From the NCBI GenBank assembly GCA_949319575.1, contig CASGHD010000130.1:1-44897 (forward strand): DNA of 44,897 nt, read 5' to 3'. Positions 820 through 7,821 of the stretch are shown piece by piece; the first letter of the stretch is position 1; every line of letters starts with the position of its first letter. The notes beneath the pieces are model-generated. The model searched no databases, was not told the origin of the DNA, and saw nothing but the letters and a program-made list of their open reading frames with translations. Position numbers and translations under genes: made by a program. This DNA comes from an uncultured Anaerolineales bacterium (GTDB taxonomy: Bacteria > Chloroflexota > Anaerolineae > Anaerolineales > Villigracilaceae).

Positions 820-2538
820 CTACTCGTTAATGAACCATTCGCGCGCGTTCCAGAATGGCGATGCCCCGGAGAATTTCACTCCTTGCAGGCGGTTGCTTAC
901 AGCCCAGAGGTCGGGGTCCTTCCACATGCCTACCCAGACCACATTGTCGAACATGATCTGCCCGATCTGGTAATAGAGTTGCTTGCGCGCTTCCGGGTCG
1001 GTCTCGGTGGCTTGCTGGTCGAACAACGCGTCCAATTCGGGGTTGCAGTAGCTCTGCCAGTTTCCACCGTCCGGGTTATCCGGTCCGACAACTTGCGAGC
1101 ACAGCCAGTAGGAGGACTGCTCGGGGTCGGGGAAGCTGGTCACGTCTGACCATTCGGCAATGTCATAGTTACCGGTGGCAATGGGACCGCCATCCGCGTA
1201 ACTGTTGAAGAAATCATCGCCATAGTTCACCAATTCCACTCCGATGCCCGCCTGCGCCCACATCTGTTGTACCACGGCTTGCACGTCTTTGCGTAACTGC
1301 CGCTGGTTGGAGATGTAACGCAGAACAAGTTCCACGCCGTCTTTATCGCGCGTGCCATCGCCATTGGAATCCTTCCATCCAGCCACATCGAGCAGACTGC
1401 CCGCTTCCTCCGCATCGTAGGGGTAAGGCGAAATATCGGGGTTTCCGTACGGGGGAGTGCTGTCCCAGAAAGTGGCAGGGACGGTGGTTAGCCCGCCGAG
1501 CAGGTCGTTTACGATCTTCTCGCGGTTGGTCGCCATCACAATCGCTTTGCGCACATTCACATCCAACATGGCGGGGTGAGCGGTTTCAGGGTTGAAATTC
1601 AAGAACCAGCCCTCATCGTAACCGGAGGGTTGTGTCACAAATTTTGCCTTGCCGCTGGAGTTGATCGCATCGGCTTGTGACCAATCGAGAAACGTTGCGA
1701 TGTCTGTATCGCCGGCAAGAATGGCGACCTCTTGCGCGGCGTCGTCTGCCATGCGGATGAACACCTGCTGTAACTTCGCGGGGTGAATCCAATTCGGGTT
1801 CGCTTCGAAGATCATGTGGCTGTCGGTTTCCCATTCTTTGAAGACGAACGGTCCCACTCCGACGGTCGGCGCGGTATTCCATGCGGCGTTATCCAGCGTG
1901 CCTTCCGCCTCGAAGACCGGTCGCAGCACATGTTCCGGCAGAACGCCGGTGTTGAACAATGTGGTCAGCCAGGCGGCGAACGGCGCGTTGAAGTTAACCA
2001 CGAGTGTGTGATCGTCAGGCGCTTCCATGCTGGTCACATAATCCGCGTATGGGTAGGTGCTGTTGACAACATTCTTATCTGATACGAACATTTCGTAGGT
2101 GAAGACGAAATCGTTCGCGGTCACGGGTTCGCCGTCGCTCCATAGAACATCGTCGCGTAGGTTGATCGTCAGGGTCATGCCGTCCGCGCTCATTCCGCCG
2201 TTCTCGGTAGTAGGAAGTTCGGCGGCAATTTCGAGCACCGGGTTGTTATCTGAGTCAAACGACCACAAGCCTTTCAGCCACAACTGCGTGGTGATGCTCG
2301 AAAACCATTGGTTTTGGTATAAGGGGCTGAGCGTGGTCGGCTGTTGCACAAAGGTGACGACCGCGATGCCGCTGAAATGCGGAGCCGGCGGTTCGGTTGC
2401 CGCGGGTTCCGTCGCTTCGGGCGCCGCCGGTTCGGTGGCAACGGCTGGAGGTTCGGTTTCGGCGCCTCCGCCGCAAGCCGCCAACACCATACTCGCGAGA
2501 ACGAGCAGGGACAGTAAAACGTGCAGGTTTCGTTTCAT
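820..2538 (-). CDS. ABC transporter substrate-binding lipoprotein, family 5 (peptide/nickel/oligopeptide type), canonical order
   Basis: Lipoprotein signal MKRNLHVLLSLLVLASMVLAACGGG. Family-5 motifs in usual order (LRDDVLWSDGEPVTANDFVFTYE, VGPFVFKEWE, VRKAIVMATNREKI). RBS ggaggag upstream of the ATG at 2538; the track ORF start at 2601 is too long. Confidence 0.93.
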   Translation of the reverse strand: MKRNLHVLLSLLVLASMVLAACGGGAETEPPAVATEPAAPEATEPAATEPPAPHFSGIAVVTFVQQPTTLSPLYQNQWFSSITTQLWLKGLWSFDSDNNPVLEIAAELPTTENGGMSADGMTLTINLRDDVLWSDGEPVTANDFVFTYEMFVSDKNVVNSTYPYADYVTSMEAPDDHTLVVNFNAPFAAWLTTLFNTGVLPEHVLRPVFEAEGTLDNAAWNTAPTVGVGPFVFKEWETDSHMIFEANPNWIHPAKLQQVFIRMADDAAQEVAILAGDTDIATFLDWSQADAINSSGKAKFVTQPSGYDEGWFLNFNPETAHPAMLDVNVRKAIVMATNREKIVNDLLGGLTTVPATFWDSTPPYGNPDISPYPYDAEEAGSLLDVAGWKDSNGDGTRDKDGVELVLRYISNQRQLRKDVQAVVQQMWAQAGIGVELVNYGDDFFNSYADGGPIATGNYDIAEWSDVTSFPDPEQSSYWLCSQVVGPDNPDGGNWQSYCNPELDALFDQQATETDPEARKQLYYQIGQIMFDNVVWVGMWKDPDLWAVSNRLQGVKFSGASPFWNAREWFINE

Positions 2539-2710
2539 GATTCTCCTCCAAGAGAGATGGATGCGATTTTTCGATGTGTGGGTAAACGAATAGAGAGACA
2601 TCTGTGTCGGGCAACCTCCTGCTATGCAAAATTAGATAGCAATCATCATTCCGCCAGCGGATAAGAACGATTCTTCCGACGGGCGGGTTGATACACGACT
2701 GTGGCGTTCT

Positions 2711-3661
2711 CTAACTGACGTTCGCCAGCCGCGGATCCAACGCGTCGCGCAGACCGTCGCCGAGTAAGTTGAAAGCCAGCACGGTAAGCATGATCGCCAG
2801 CCCGGGGTAAAACACAAGATGCGGCGCGGTGAACACCTGATTGCGTTCCGAGCCGAGCATTGCGCCCCACTCCGGAGTTGGAGGTTGCGCTCCCAATCCG
2901 AGGAAAGAAAGAGCCGCCGCATCCAAAATTGCGGTAGCGATTCCCAACGTCCCCTGCACAATGAGCGGCGTCAATGCGTTAGGCAGGATGCGGCGAAATA
3001 GAATATCGAAGGCGTTTCCCCCGAGCGAGCGCGTGGCAGAGACAAAATCCATCTCGCGCACCAAAAGGACGCTGCCGCGCATCACGCGCGCATACGCGGG
3101 AATCGAAACAATGCCGATGGCAAGCAACGCGTTGATCAACCCCGGTCCTAAAACGGTGACAATGGCAATGGCAAGCAACAGGGAAGGGAAGGCAAGCAAC
3201 ACATCCATCACGCGCATGATCGCGTTGTCCACCCATCCGCCAAAATAGCCCGCCAGCGCGCCAAGAACCGTGCCAACCAGGATGGCAAACGTGACCGTGG
3301 AAAAACCGATCATCAAACTCAGGCGCGCGCCGTACAGCAGGCGGCTGAACTCATCGCGGATGACTCCATCCAACCCCATAATATGCTGGGGGCTTTCTTT
3401 GGGGCAACCAAGCAAATGAATGCAGGGAGGCAGGCGCTTTTGGGCTTGCCCGGCGTAGTCCGGCACATCAAGCATGGATTTTACGGGGTCGTACGGCGCC
3501 AGCCATTGAGCGGTTAATGCCACAAAAATTAAGATCCCTAAAATGATCATACCGACGACGGCAGATTTGCGGCGAAAGAGACGCTTTTTAGTGATACTCC
3601 ATAGGCTGACCGATTCGAGCGAGATCGCTTCCGCGTCTAATTTGGATATAGTGTTTGCCAT
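2711..3661 (-). CDS. ABC transporter permease, DppC/OppC family
   Basis: Binding-protein-dependent permease with N-terminal TM and the motif ...GAALSFLGLGAQPPTPEWGAMLGSERNQ. Confidence 0.93.
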   Translation of the reverse strand: MANTISKLDAEAISLESVSLWSITKKRLFRRKSAVVGMIILGILIFVALTAQWLAPYDPVKSMLDVPDYAGQAQKRLPPCIHLLGCPKESPQHIMGLDGVIRDEFSRLLYGARLSLMIGFSTVTFAILVGTVLGALAGYFGGWVDNAIMRVMDVLLAFPSLLLAIAIVTVLGPGLINALLAIGIVSIPAYARVMRGSVLLVREMDFVSATRSLGGNAFDILFRRILPNALTPLIVQGTLGIATAILDAAALSFLGLGAQPPTPEWGAMLGSERNQVFTAPHLVFYPGLAIMLTVLAFNLLGDGLRDALDPRLANVS

Positions 3662-3663
3662 GA

Positions 3664-4743
3664 TTAATTCAACCGTATGCGCGGATCGAGATATGCGTAG
3701 GAAATGTCAACGAGCAGGTTTAGAACAACGAAGAAAACGGCAATCACAACGGTAAAAGCCTGCACGATGCCGTAATCGCGGGCAGTGATGGCTTCATATA
3801 AAATGCGCCCAACGCCCGCCAGGTTGAACACGGTTTCGGTCAGCACTGCGCCGCCGAGTAGACCTCCCAGCGAGAGCCCAATCACAGTAACGATGGGGAG
3901 CAGGGCGTTACGGAACGCGTGTTTCATCACAACGGCTCTTTGTTTCAATCCTTTGGCGCGCGCGGTGCGGATGTAATCCTGCCCCAGTACTTCGAGCATC
4001 GAGGAGCGCGTCATGCGCGCGATCAAGGCGGTGGAGATGGTCGAGAGCGCCAGAGCGGGCAGGATCATATGTTGAACCGCGTCTTTGAAAGTCTTGTAAT
4101 CGCCGGCGAGAATACTGTTAAAAATGTTCATACGGGAGATAAACTCTGCCGCAATAAATACAAACGTCCCTTGAGTCAGGTGCAAATTCCACGCTTCATA
4201 GAAAGGGGATGGGATCAAACCCGCCGACAGACGCCCCGAGGGAGGCAGTTGAAAGGGCGTGCCCTTTAAAGTCAGGGAAAAGATATATGCCAGCATCAGC
4301 CCAAGCCAGAAGACCGGCATTGAAACACCGATGTTCGCCCACAACATCGTTACTACATCTGCCCATGAGTTATGTCGGACCGCCGAAATGACCCCCAGAG
4401 AAACCCCGATGATTATGCTCAACACCAATGCTGAAAATGCCAATTCAACGGTGGTTGGCAGGCGCTGAATGATGATCTCGGTCACTGGCAAAGAGAAGCG
4501 GAAAGATTTTCCAAAATCGCCTTTTAATACCTCACCCATGTAAACGCCAAACTGCGTTAGGATCGGTTGATCCAAGCCGTGCCGCTTGATAAATTCATTG
4601 CACACGGCGTCGGTGGCTTTTTCGCCCAGCATGGCGCGGCAGGGATCGCTTGGGATCAAGCGCGCTAATGCGAACGTTGCAAATAGAATTCCAAATAATA
4701 CCGGGATGCTGAGCAGGAGGCGTCTAAAAATGTAGGTTGCCAT
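3664..4743 (-). CDS. ABC transporter permease, DppB/OppB family
   Basis: MATYIFRRLLLSIPVLFGILFATFALARLIPSDPC..., typical DppB N-terminus, and C-terminal VLNLLVDISYAYLDPRIRLN. Confidence 0.93.
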   Translation of the reverse strand: MATYIFRRLLLSIPVLFGILFATFALARLIPSDPCRAMLGEKATDAVCNEFIKRHGLDQPILTQFGVYMGEVLKGDFGKSFRFSLPVTEIIIQRLPTTVELAFSALVLSIIIGVSLGVISAVRHNSWADVVTMLWANIGVSMPVFWLGLMLAYIFSLTLKGTPFQLPPSGRLSAGLIPSPFYEAWNLHLTQGTFVFIAAEFISRMNIFNSILAGDYKTFKDAVQHMILPALALSTISTALIARMTRSSMLEVLGQDYIRTARAKGLKQRAVVMKHAFRNALLPIVTVIGLSLGGLLGGAVLTETVFNLAGVGRILYEAITARDYGIVQAFTVVIAVFFVVLNLLVDISYAYLDPRIRLN

Positions 4744-4809: not shown

Positions 4810-6555
4810 TTACGGGGCAGGCGCGTTCAAGAACGGACCAAAGAGACCGCTCCAATAGGAGAAACCGCCGGTGTTGCCCGTATGAAGCGGGTTGGCGGCA
4901 TCCCACTGAACTACGAGGGATGTCACAACATCGTTCGCGTCGAAGGACGAGCCATCGTGGAACAGAACGCCCTGGCGCAGGTGGAAGATCCACTCGGTCA
5001 GGTCTGCGTTGGCTTCGTAGGATTCAGCCAAGACAGGTTCGACCGCGGTGCCGCCGACTTCGTAGCCGAGCAGGGACTGAGTCACCTGTTCGCAAGCGCG
5101 CAGAGATTCGCCATCGGTCTCATCCGCGCAGTAGAGCGAGATGGGTTCGGCATTTTGCATCCAGACGAAAGTGTCTGTGCCATTGCCCATGACGGCAAAA
5201 CTTTCATTGCCGAGCGGGCTGGCATGTGGGTTGCCTTCAAGACCAGCCTTGTACGCCACAGCGGAACCGCCGTGAGCCACAGGGATCATGGGAACGTGCG
5301 TTTTGATGGCGTTGTTGGCGGCTTCATAGAAGGGCGCGCGGTCCGCGTCGGAAGCGAGTTGAGCGCCTTGTTCAATGGCATCCACGACATCGGGGAACTT
5401 GTCTCCGAATTGAGCGGAAGAGCCAGCGCCGAAGTGATAACCAAGGAAGTTGGTCTGGTCAGGATAGTCAGCGCCCCAGCCCAGCATGTACAGGCCGGTC
5501 AGTTGACCGGAATCAGCCGCGTCGAGGAAGGCGCCGGATTCCATCACTTCGATCTTGAGAGTGATGTTTAGGTTCGTCTTCAATTGGGCTTGAATATCCT
5601 GCGCCACAATGTTCGGGTCGGGCAGGTAGCCGCGCACAACATCGCGGTAGTTTAGAACGGTTTCAAAACCATCGGGATAGCCAGCCTCGGCAAGTAACGT
5701 CTTAGCGGCGGCGGCATCGAAGGAATACCAATCATCGCCAACACAACCATTCGGAATCGAGCAGGGTGTGAAGTGTGAAGCAACTTCGGAGCCGGCAGGG
5801 TAGAAGTTATCTACAATGCGTTGGCGGTCAATGCCCATGGCAATCGCCTGGCGGACTTTTTCATTGGCAAGCGGATTCTTGGAATTATCGAACCCATCAA
5901 CCTTCGGGTTGTTGTTGAAGCCAATATACATGATGTTCAACGCCGGGCGCGGGATCAACTGGAGGTTCGAGTCGGCTTCAATGGTAGCGAAGTCGTCCGG
6001 GCCGGGGTTGTCAATGCCGTCCACAGTGCCGGACTGCAATTCGAGCAAGCGTTGGGCAGATTCAGTACCCCAGCGGAACACGAGGGTCTTGCTCATGGCA
6101 GGGTCGCCCCAATATTCATCGAAGCGGCTGAAGACGAGTTGGTTACCGCGCTCCCACGATTCGACTTTATAAGGACCCGTGCCGACAGGATTCTCGAGCG
6201 GCGAGCCGTTGGTGGCTTCCAGATGTTCCTGAGGCTGGATCGCGAAAGAGCTAAATGCAATCTTTGAGGGAAGGGCAGGGTCGGGGACGCACAACGAGAT
6301 TTTGACGGTGAATTCGTCCACTGCTTCGATGGACTTGACCTCGCCGCCATAATCACAGTTGGGGGCTTCCGCTTTTACGCCTTCATATGCGGCGGGAGGC
6401 TCAGTTGCAGGCGCTTCCTTCGTCGGGGCTTCGGTGGGCGGGGCGGCCGGTTCGTCGGTCGCAACCTGGGTGGCAACGGGTCCGCCGCCGCACGCCGCAA
6501 GGATCATGCTCGCGAGAACGAGCAGTGACATCAAACTGAATAGGTTTCGTTTCAC
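4810..6555 (-). CDS. ABC transporter substrate-binding lipoprotein, family 5, apparently circularly permuted
   Basis: GTG start with aggagg RBS. Lipoprotein signal MKRNLFSLMSLLVLASMILAACGGG. VKSIEAVDEFTVKISL, GTGPYKVESWE and VRQAIAMGIDRQRIVDNF come first; the canonical N-terminal block DTFVWMQNAEPISLYCADETDGESLRACEQVTQSLLGYE...LRQGVLFHDGSSFDANDVV is at residues 461-581. Confidence 0.92.
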   Translation of the reverse strand: MKRNLFSLMSLLVLASMILAACGGGPVATQVATDEPAAPPTEAPTKEAPATEPPAAYEGVKAEAPNCDYGGEVKSIEAVDEFTVKISLCVPDPALPSKIAFSSFAIQPQEHLEATNGSPLENPVGTGPYKVESWERGNQLVFSRFDEYWGDPAMSKTLVFRWGTESAQRLLELQSGTVDGIDNPGPDDFATIEADSNLQLIPRPALNIMYIGFNNNPKVDGFDNSKNPLANEKVRQAIAMGIDRQRIVDNFYPAGSEVASHFTPCSIPNGCVGDDWYSFDAAAAKTLLAEAGYPDGFETVLNYRDVVRGYLPDPNIVAQDIQAQLKTNLNITLKIEVMESGAFLDAADSGQLTGLYMLGWGADYPDQTNFLGYHFGAGSSAQFGDKFPDVVDAIEQGAQLASDADRAPFYEAANNAIKTHVPMIPVAHGGSAVAYKAGLEGNPHASPLGNESFAVMGNGTDTFVWMQNAEPISLYCADETDGESLRACEQVTQSLLGYEVGGTAVEPVLAESYEANADLTEWIFHLRQGVLFHDGSSFDANDVVTSLVVQWDAANPLHTGNTGGFSYWSGLFGPFLNAPAP

Positions 6556-6679: not shown

Positions 6680-7795
6680 TTAGTAAACGGGTAAGGGGAC
6701 GCCCAACCCATTTAACGCTACTTGAGAGGGGTTTTTATGCCACAAACCGGGAACTTTTGTATGGCATGTAGGGCACCTCCCATCGCCGGTGATGCGATAC
6801 TCCTGAATGATGTACCCCCGTCTCTTTACCAGTGTGAAGTTGCACGCCGGGCAAAACGTATCTTCATACTCCCCAACCTGCCCCGGTAAATTCCCCGCGT
6901 ACACGAATCGCAGACCCGCCTCTTTTCCAATCTCTGCCCCGCGTAAAAGAGTCTTCGCATCGGTGTTGTCCGGGTCAGTCATTTTGTAATCTTTGTGGAA
7001 CGCGGTCACATGCCACGGAATATCTTTCGAAACGCCCGCGATGAAACGCGCCGCATCCCATAACTCTTCATTTGAATCGTTGAAGCCCGGAATCGTCAGC
7101 GTGACGATCTCCACCCACAGACCCATTTCATGCGCGCGCTTGATCCCGTCCAATGTGTGTTGCAAAACGCCGCCCAACTTGCGATAATTCTTATCCTGCA
7201 TACATTTCAAATCCACTTTGTATGCGGAGATATATGGTCTTATGTATTCCATCACTTCCGGCGTATTATTTCCGTTTGAAACGTACGCGCACATCAACCC
7301 CGCCTTCTTCGCCTCTTTGAAAATCTCAACCGCCCACTCGCTGGTAATCAATGGTTCGTTGTATGAAGAGACAACAATCGAAGCGTTTGTTTTTCTTGCA
7401 TAATCAACCATCCCTTGCGGCGAAATCTTCCGAATGGAATTTATAGACTCATCCGAAGATGGGTCGCGCATGGCTTGGGAAGTTAACCAGTTTTGGCAGT
7501 AACCACAATGGAAATCGCAACCGAGCATCCCAAACGTTAAGGCGTTGGTTCCAGACATAACATGAAAAAAAGGTTTCTTTTCGATAGGGTCGCTTTGCAA
7601 CGCGCCCACGTAGCCCCACGGCACGCGCAGCTCTCCGCCCTCGTTGAACCGCACTTGGCAAATCCCGCGCTTCCCCTCGCGGATCACACAGCGATGTCCG
7701 CACGCGAAACAGCGTAATTCCTTGTTGGGCAATTTTTCATACAACTCCCCCGTCACGGTCAGCGTATCCAACAATTCGCCGATTGAAGTCGTCAT
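6680..7795 (-). CDS. amrS: Radical SAM enzyme, AmmeMemoRadiSam-system (AmrS-like) / PflA-related
   Basis: CX3CX2C-type motif CDFHCGYCQN and overall match to the AmrS pattern (CFACGHRCVIREGKRGICQVR, FHKDYKMTDPDNT, C-terminal CxxC pairs). ATG at 7795. Confidence 0.85.
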   Translation of the reverse strand: MTTSIGELLDTLTVTGELYEKLPNKELRCFACGHRCVIREGKRGICQVRFNEGGELRVPWGYVGALQSDPIEKKPFFHVMSGTNALTFGMLGCDFHCGYCQNWLTSQAMRDPSSDESINSIRKISPQGMVDYARKTNASIVVSSYNEPLITSEWAVEIFKEAKKAGLMCAYVSNGNNTPEVMEYIRPYISAYKVDLKCMQDKNYRKLGGVLQHTLDGIKRAHEMGLWVEIVTLTIPGFNDSNEELWDAARFIAGVSKDIPWHVTAFHKDYKMTDPDNTDAKTLLRGAEIGKEAGLRFVYAGNLPGQVGEYEDTFCPACNFTLVKRRGYIIQEYRITGDGRCPTCHTKVPGLWHKNPSQVALNGLGVPLPVY

Positions 7796-7809
7796 ACAGC
7801 CTCTTCCTT

Positions 7810-7821
7810 TATAATACACCC
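7810..7821 (+). promoter_or_regulatory. -10 box TATAAT six bases before mobA ATG
   Basis: TATAAT at 7810-7815, acaccc, ATG at 7822. Confidence 0.65.

Follow-up and report, generated by a model that had tools for sequence, protein, structure and literature searches.

The window analysed here is the whole 44,897-nt contig CASGHD010000130.1 of an uncultured Anaerolineales bacterium (GCA_949319575.1), and all coordinates refer to it. An open reading frame (ORF) at 4810..6555, on the reverse strand, encodes a 581-residue substrate-binding lipoprotein of family 5 whose two parts stand in circularly permuted order. The ORF starts with GTG, and its leader (residues 1-22, 6490..6555) ends in the lipobox LAAC at residues 19-22, in keeping with an earlier note on this DNA that had described a normal lipoprotein leader from the sequence alone. 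The body follows (residues 73-455, 5191..6339), corresponding to all but the N-terminal quarter of an ordinary family-5 protein, then a junction of the old C-terminus with the old N-terminus (residues 456-458, 5182..5190), and then the transplanted canonical N-terminal piece (residues 459-576, 4828..5181). On the same strand lie a DppB-type permease (3664..4743), a DppC-type permease (2711..3661) and a second family-5 substrate-binding protein (SBP), of canonical order (820..2601).

The permuted SBP scores 265 bits against PF00496 (gathering cut-off 32.4), split in two stretches. Scanned alone, its N-terminal 460 residues match profile positions 61-365 (1.8e-63) and its C-terminal 123 residues match positions 2-53 (2.4e-14), which is the reverse of the linear profile order. 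The earlier note had proposed two such out-of-order partial matches, placing the displaced part correctly at residues 461-581 (DNA 4813-5175), and an end-to-end alignment in normal order was not seen. The neighbouring SBP, which it had suggested as an internal control of usual order, indeed matches positions 11-363 in a single run. Comparison with chains of the Protein Data Bank (PDB) gives the same picture: residues 72-451 correspond to Yersinia pestis DppA 151-527 and residues 491-571 to DppA 60-146, while the C-terminal 123 residues also match DppA residues 34-122. The stretch before residue 73 consists of the leader, a Pro/Ala/Thr linker and some 12 further residues; the canonical N-terminal strands, whose persistence at the front had been named beforehand as the mark of an added C-terminal domain, are absent there.

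A canonical profile of 546 positions was built from canonical-order relatives. In native order the protein matches it twice: residues 73-455 take up positions 166-541 with 322 bits, and residues 459-576 take up positions 44-159 with 107 bits. What stays unmatched of the profile is the leader region, a gap of six positions where the chain newly opens, and a few positions at the profile's end. Only three residues (456-458) connect the old ends, and when the two pieces are swapped in silico a single collinear match of 441 bits results. Applied family-wide, this test finds 91 of 92 native sequences matching out of order, and each of 81 rearranged sequences giving a single collinear match. Canonical relatives end in '...SPVSLEPFSVVTV' and start with '..ATLVFGTSADP', and the joint in many permuted homologues reads '...SPLGNEYFAVM-DPGGR-DTFVWMQNAEP'; since these letters run from a canonical end into a canonical start, the joint falls almost exactly between the canonical ends. 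The protein is thus a complete family-5 (cluster C, DppA-like) SBP, permuted and not truncated, with new ends opening at the equivalent of DppA mature residues ~120-124. A truncated family-5 protein with an unrelated or extra C-terminal domain would agree with the one long match that the body alone gives in a routine domain scan. We consider it very improbable, because the C-terminal 123 residues themselves match PF00496 and DppA, the canonical profile is covered save for the leader and the six positions at the opening, the C-terminal piece folds badly by itself (below), and the collinear match after rearrangement, in 81 of 81 cases, refutes it. The permutation that the earlier note had put forward in place of truncation is borne out by these scores, by the shared order of all homologues and by a complete predicted fold. 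A plain family match reports an ordinary family-5 protein and conceals this topology.

AlphaFold2, given a 74-homologue alignment of residues 57-581, returns a confident model (predicted local distance difference test score, pLDDT, 93.6; predicted template modelling score, pTM, 0.90), according to which the permuted chain would fold into an ordinary three-domain Venus-flytrap. Foldseek, which compares structures in sequence order, matches the model to ligand-bound DppA (1dpp) over 397 columns with a root-mean-square deviation (rmsd) of 2.3, and to DppA structures generally over ~400 columns of 525 residues (template modelling score 0.68-0.70; rmsd 2.3-2.5), in agreement with the three-domain fold of cluster C; a sequential match of this length would be expected with ~125 residues in permuted positions. 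The 50 Foldseek matches listed are all family-5-type binding proteins, with no cluster B (type I) protein among them. As a control, the C-terminal piece was predicted alone and folds poorly (pLDDT 66.6, pTM 0.51; its weak best matches are DppA-like proteins), and it therefore looks integral to the fold and not like an autonomous added domain. When a permuted chain was sought among PDB sequences with the C-terminal piece, the 60 matches listed all fell near the chain start, as in canonical proteins, except for one antibody chain, which we set aside as an unrelated weak match.

Homologues of the same order were sought in a scan of 84,980 species genomes, which alone covers the phyla other than Chloroflexota and Actinomycetota. 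Eighty loci were kept, 81 with the window, and the permuted order is found in all 81, with no canonical-order member among the matches. Adding further loci, every one of them permuted, brings the set to 92 ORFs, which include a few re-fetches of the same gene (e.g. L081, which is the window). A junction-spanning query, counted as positive when matched over nearly its whole length, was positive in 26 of the 201 Chloroflexota genomes sampled, in 6 of 396 from Actinomycetota (the query's own included) and in 46 of 61 near relatives, among them 17 of the 18 genomes of the genus, nearly always in single copy. The source genome has one copy, as does Ilumatobacter nonamiensis YM16-303 (L070), a named strain not labelled as a metagenome-assembled genome. 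An assembly, binning or frameshift artefact that fused parts of two tandem binding-protein genes might be suspected, as the homologues come mostly from metagenome assemblies; we give it practically no credence, since the same join recurs in 92 ORFs of many assemblies, that of I. nonamiensis included, and both the joint and the DppBC neighbourhood are conserved.

Permuted SBPs occur, then, in many Chloroflexota and some Actinomycetota. A spread to Acidobacteria was dropped: the sole 'Acidobacteria' metagenome-assembled genome (L074, JACZWZ010000154.1) groups with Actinomycetota in the tree. The search of its nominal phylum sampled the same genomes as that of Actinomycetota, and the genome appears actinobacterial. 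No record in the plasmid collection covered 80% of the permuted SBP. One permuted member (L138:1943-3796) has about 36 extra residues past the usual C-terminal end; L096, a deep-branching member, matched the junction query at 39% identity.

In trees of the body, of the C-terminal piece and of both together, the permuted proteins form one clade (Shimodaira-Hasegawa-like approximate likelihood ratio test support 99, 96 and 100). Since there is one clade and its order is common to all members, a single origin before the present family diverged is the most likely history. Such a rearrangement would usually arise when a gene is duplicated in tandem, the copies fuse and the outer ends are lost, and no intermediate of this route was seen among the homologues found. 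The deep branches of the trees, towards the canonical sister group of the permuted clade, are weak, and the two pieces may differ in their closest canonical sister. This leaves some room for a chimera, in which the C-terminal piece was taken from a different family-5 gene, as has been considered for the permuted lipoprotein TpMglB-2 (below). We think it unlikely, because each piece independently sets the permuted proteins apart from the same canonical set as one clade, and a chimera would in any case remain a permuted architecture.

The findings described next go beyond the earlier note: conservation of the DppBC operon, retention of the residues that bind the dipeptide, and recurrent fusion at the N-terminus. 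The permuted SBP gene heads an operon with DppB and DppC directly downstream, as in most homologue loci, and in L030 two oligo_HPY ATPases (DppD/DppF) come next. In Escherichia coli DppA, R383 binds the carboxylate end of the dipeptide and D436 its amino end, and both residues face E41/R42 of the DppB scoop loop (PMC12136057). Their equivalents in the permuted SBP are R308 (5632..5634) and D363 (5467..5469), both invariant among the 74 aligned homologues, and the adjacent DppB has G40-E41-K42, an E-K or E-R pair being kept in 79 of the 81 adjacent DppB proteins. R308 and D363 would thus bind a dipeptide-like zwitterion, and the protein would dock on the adjacent DppB/DppC and, in the manner of E. 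coli DppA, release its ligand past the scoop loop of DppB. Given these residues and the DppBC operon, feeding dipeptides or similar ligands to a Dpp-type importer is the most likely role. The DppA equivalog model NF043070 gives 172.9 bits, against a cut-off of 1005.

Several points weigh against this interpretation. The ligand is deduced from a pair of residues, and similar pockets among family-5 proteins accommodate heme, glutathione, opines or other ligands. No ATPase genes stand beside the window operon; ten oligo_HPY ATPase genes lie elsewhere in the genome, and use of one of them by the operon is assumed. The three-dimensional placement of the C-terminal piece rests on AlphaFold2 confidence and homology, and the reason proposed below for the permutation is our inference. 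A ligand other than short peptides (e.g. opine-like, heme-like or a modified amino acid) is a real but minority prospect. Cluster C ligands vary widely, and two cysteines that the aligned canonical relatives do not have, C476 and C488, flank T480, the equivalent of DppA T48; set against this are the retained residues for both dipeptide ends and the acid/base pair of the scoop loop. Taken as a whole, a circularly permuted cluster C substrate-binding lipoprotein of a Dpp-type ATP-binding cassette (ABC) importer is the best explanation, to which we assign a probability of about 0.85.

The canonical-order SBP lies directly downstream of the permuted SBP, DppB and DppC, possibly in the same operon, and has a very similar lipoprotein leader. 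The two binding proteins may share one permease pair.

Like C476 and C488, C89 (6289..6291) is invariant in the family alignment, and it is accompanied by C67 (6355..6357) in every homologue N-terminal segment not cut by a contig end. A possible C67-C89 disulfide would pin the new N-terminus. The opening corresponds to DppA residues that, by the domain limits of DppA and OppA, we take to lie within the extra domain, and the permutation would thereby shift the lipid-anchored N-terminus from the core lobe to this peripheral domain. A simple pattern finds a lipobox ahead of the body in 70 of the 92 ORFs; among 18 that lack it, most are fusions or truncated at the 5' end, and in L058, L067, L068 and L079 the signal peptide is of the ordinary kind, with Ala-Gln-Asp or similar at its end.

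At least 14 homologues have a second binding protein ahead of the permuted one in a continuous ORF. It is of family 3 (SBP_bac_3) in L030 (4098-6575), L032, L039, L041, L042, L045, L049, L061 and L113, and of family 6 (Peripla_BP_6) in L026, L029, L052, L146 and L053, the last (1339 aa) with two Peripla_BP_6 stretches before the permuted SBP; in L026 and L146 the 5' end is cut off. Mapped on the family tree, the fused/not-fused label requires five changes, at least four of them by well-supported branches, so that N-terminal fusions arose or disappeared repeatedly. Near the fused loci L053, L113, L030 and L049 there are permease genes belonging to other importers, and the Pfam scan found no transporter transmembrane domain in the fused proteins. 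As a small control, three unusually long canonical-order proteins showed no second binding domain. The permutation may have placed the N-terminus at a peripheral position open to attachments, which would explain why a lipid anchor is found there, or else a further binding protein of family 3 or 6. More speculatively, and with the odds against it, the permutation might make a modular receptor, its N-terminus a socket for anchors or SBPs of other families, so that one lipoprotein catches two nutrient classes for two importers encoded nearby. The repeated fusion of unrelated SBPs offers a testable reason for keeping the permutation. GlnPQ, with its tandem substrate-binding domains (PMC8025302), likewise has more than one binding domain per chain; the fused permuted homologues differ in mixing families (3 or 6 with permuted 5) and in their want of a transmembrane domain.

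Compared with DppA of E. coli or Y. pestis (cluster C, PF00496), the permuted SBP is homologous in both pieces, keeps the ligand Arg and Asp and has the same kind of permease partners; it differs in carrying the first ~120 residues at the C-terminus, with new ends at DppA 120-124, in its extra cysteines at both rearranged regions and in its lipid anchor being elsewhere. The nearest parallel is TpMglB-2 (Tp0684), a glucose-binding lipoprotein that is a permuted member of cluster B. In the paper describing it, a 'Cluster Bc' is proposed, together with a connection to membrane tethering (PMC4990184). TpMglB-2 too is a natural circular permutation of a tethered substrate-binding lipoprotein with N-lobe strands at the C-terminus, found mostly in organisms with anchored binding proteins (PMC4990184). 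Its structural cluster (B, type I) and ligand are different and the event was separate, the likeness being an analogy between different folds; moreover, the moved part retains little sequence similarity in TpMglB-2, whereas it is clearly homologous in the permuted family-5 SBP. By this analogy, the family-5 group would be the cluster C counterpart of 'Cluster Bc'. Our literature search, outside which most subscription journals lie, turned up no description of permutation in a family-5, dipeptide- or oligopeptide-binding protein. Fixed natural circular permutations are rare in large multidomain receptors, TpMglB-2 being the only described case we found among ABC binding proteins, and the present one is clean and old, with clear homology in both pieces. 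Since most close relatives have one copy per genome, the canonical and permuted forms are directly comparable.

Directly upstream of the permuted SBP lies a radical S-adenosylmethionine protein (6680-7819), and a gene of ~370 aa occupies the same place at many related loci. The leader and Pro/Ala/Thr linker (about residues 1-57) are 49-63% identical to stretches in several other proteins of the same genome (G000:C130:2377-2538, C179:8979-9149, C215:9774-9932, C56:55645-55806 and C144:29037-29213), a likeness that suggests a shared lipoprotein leader or convergence.
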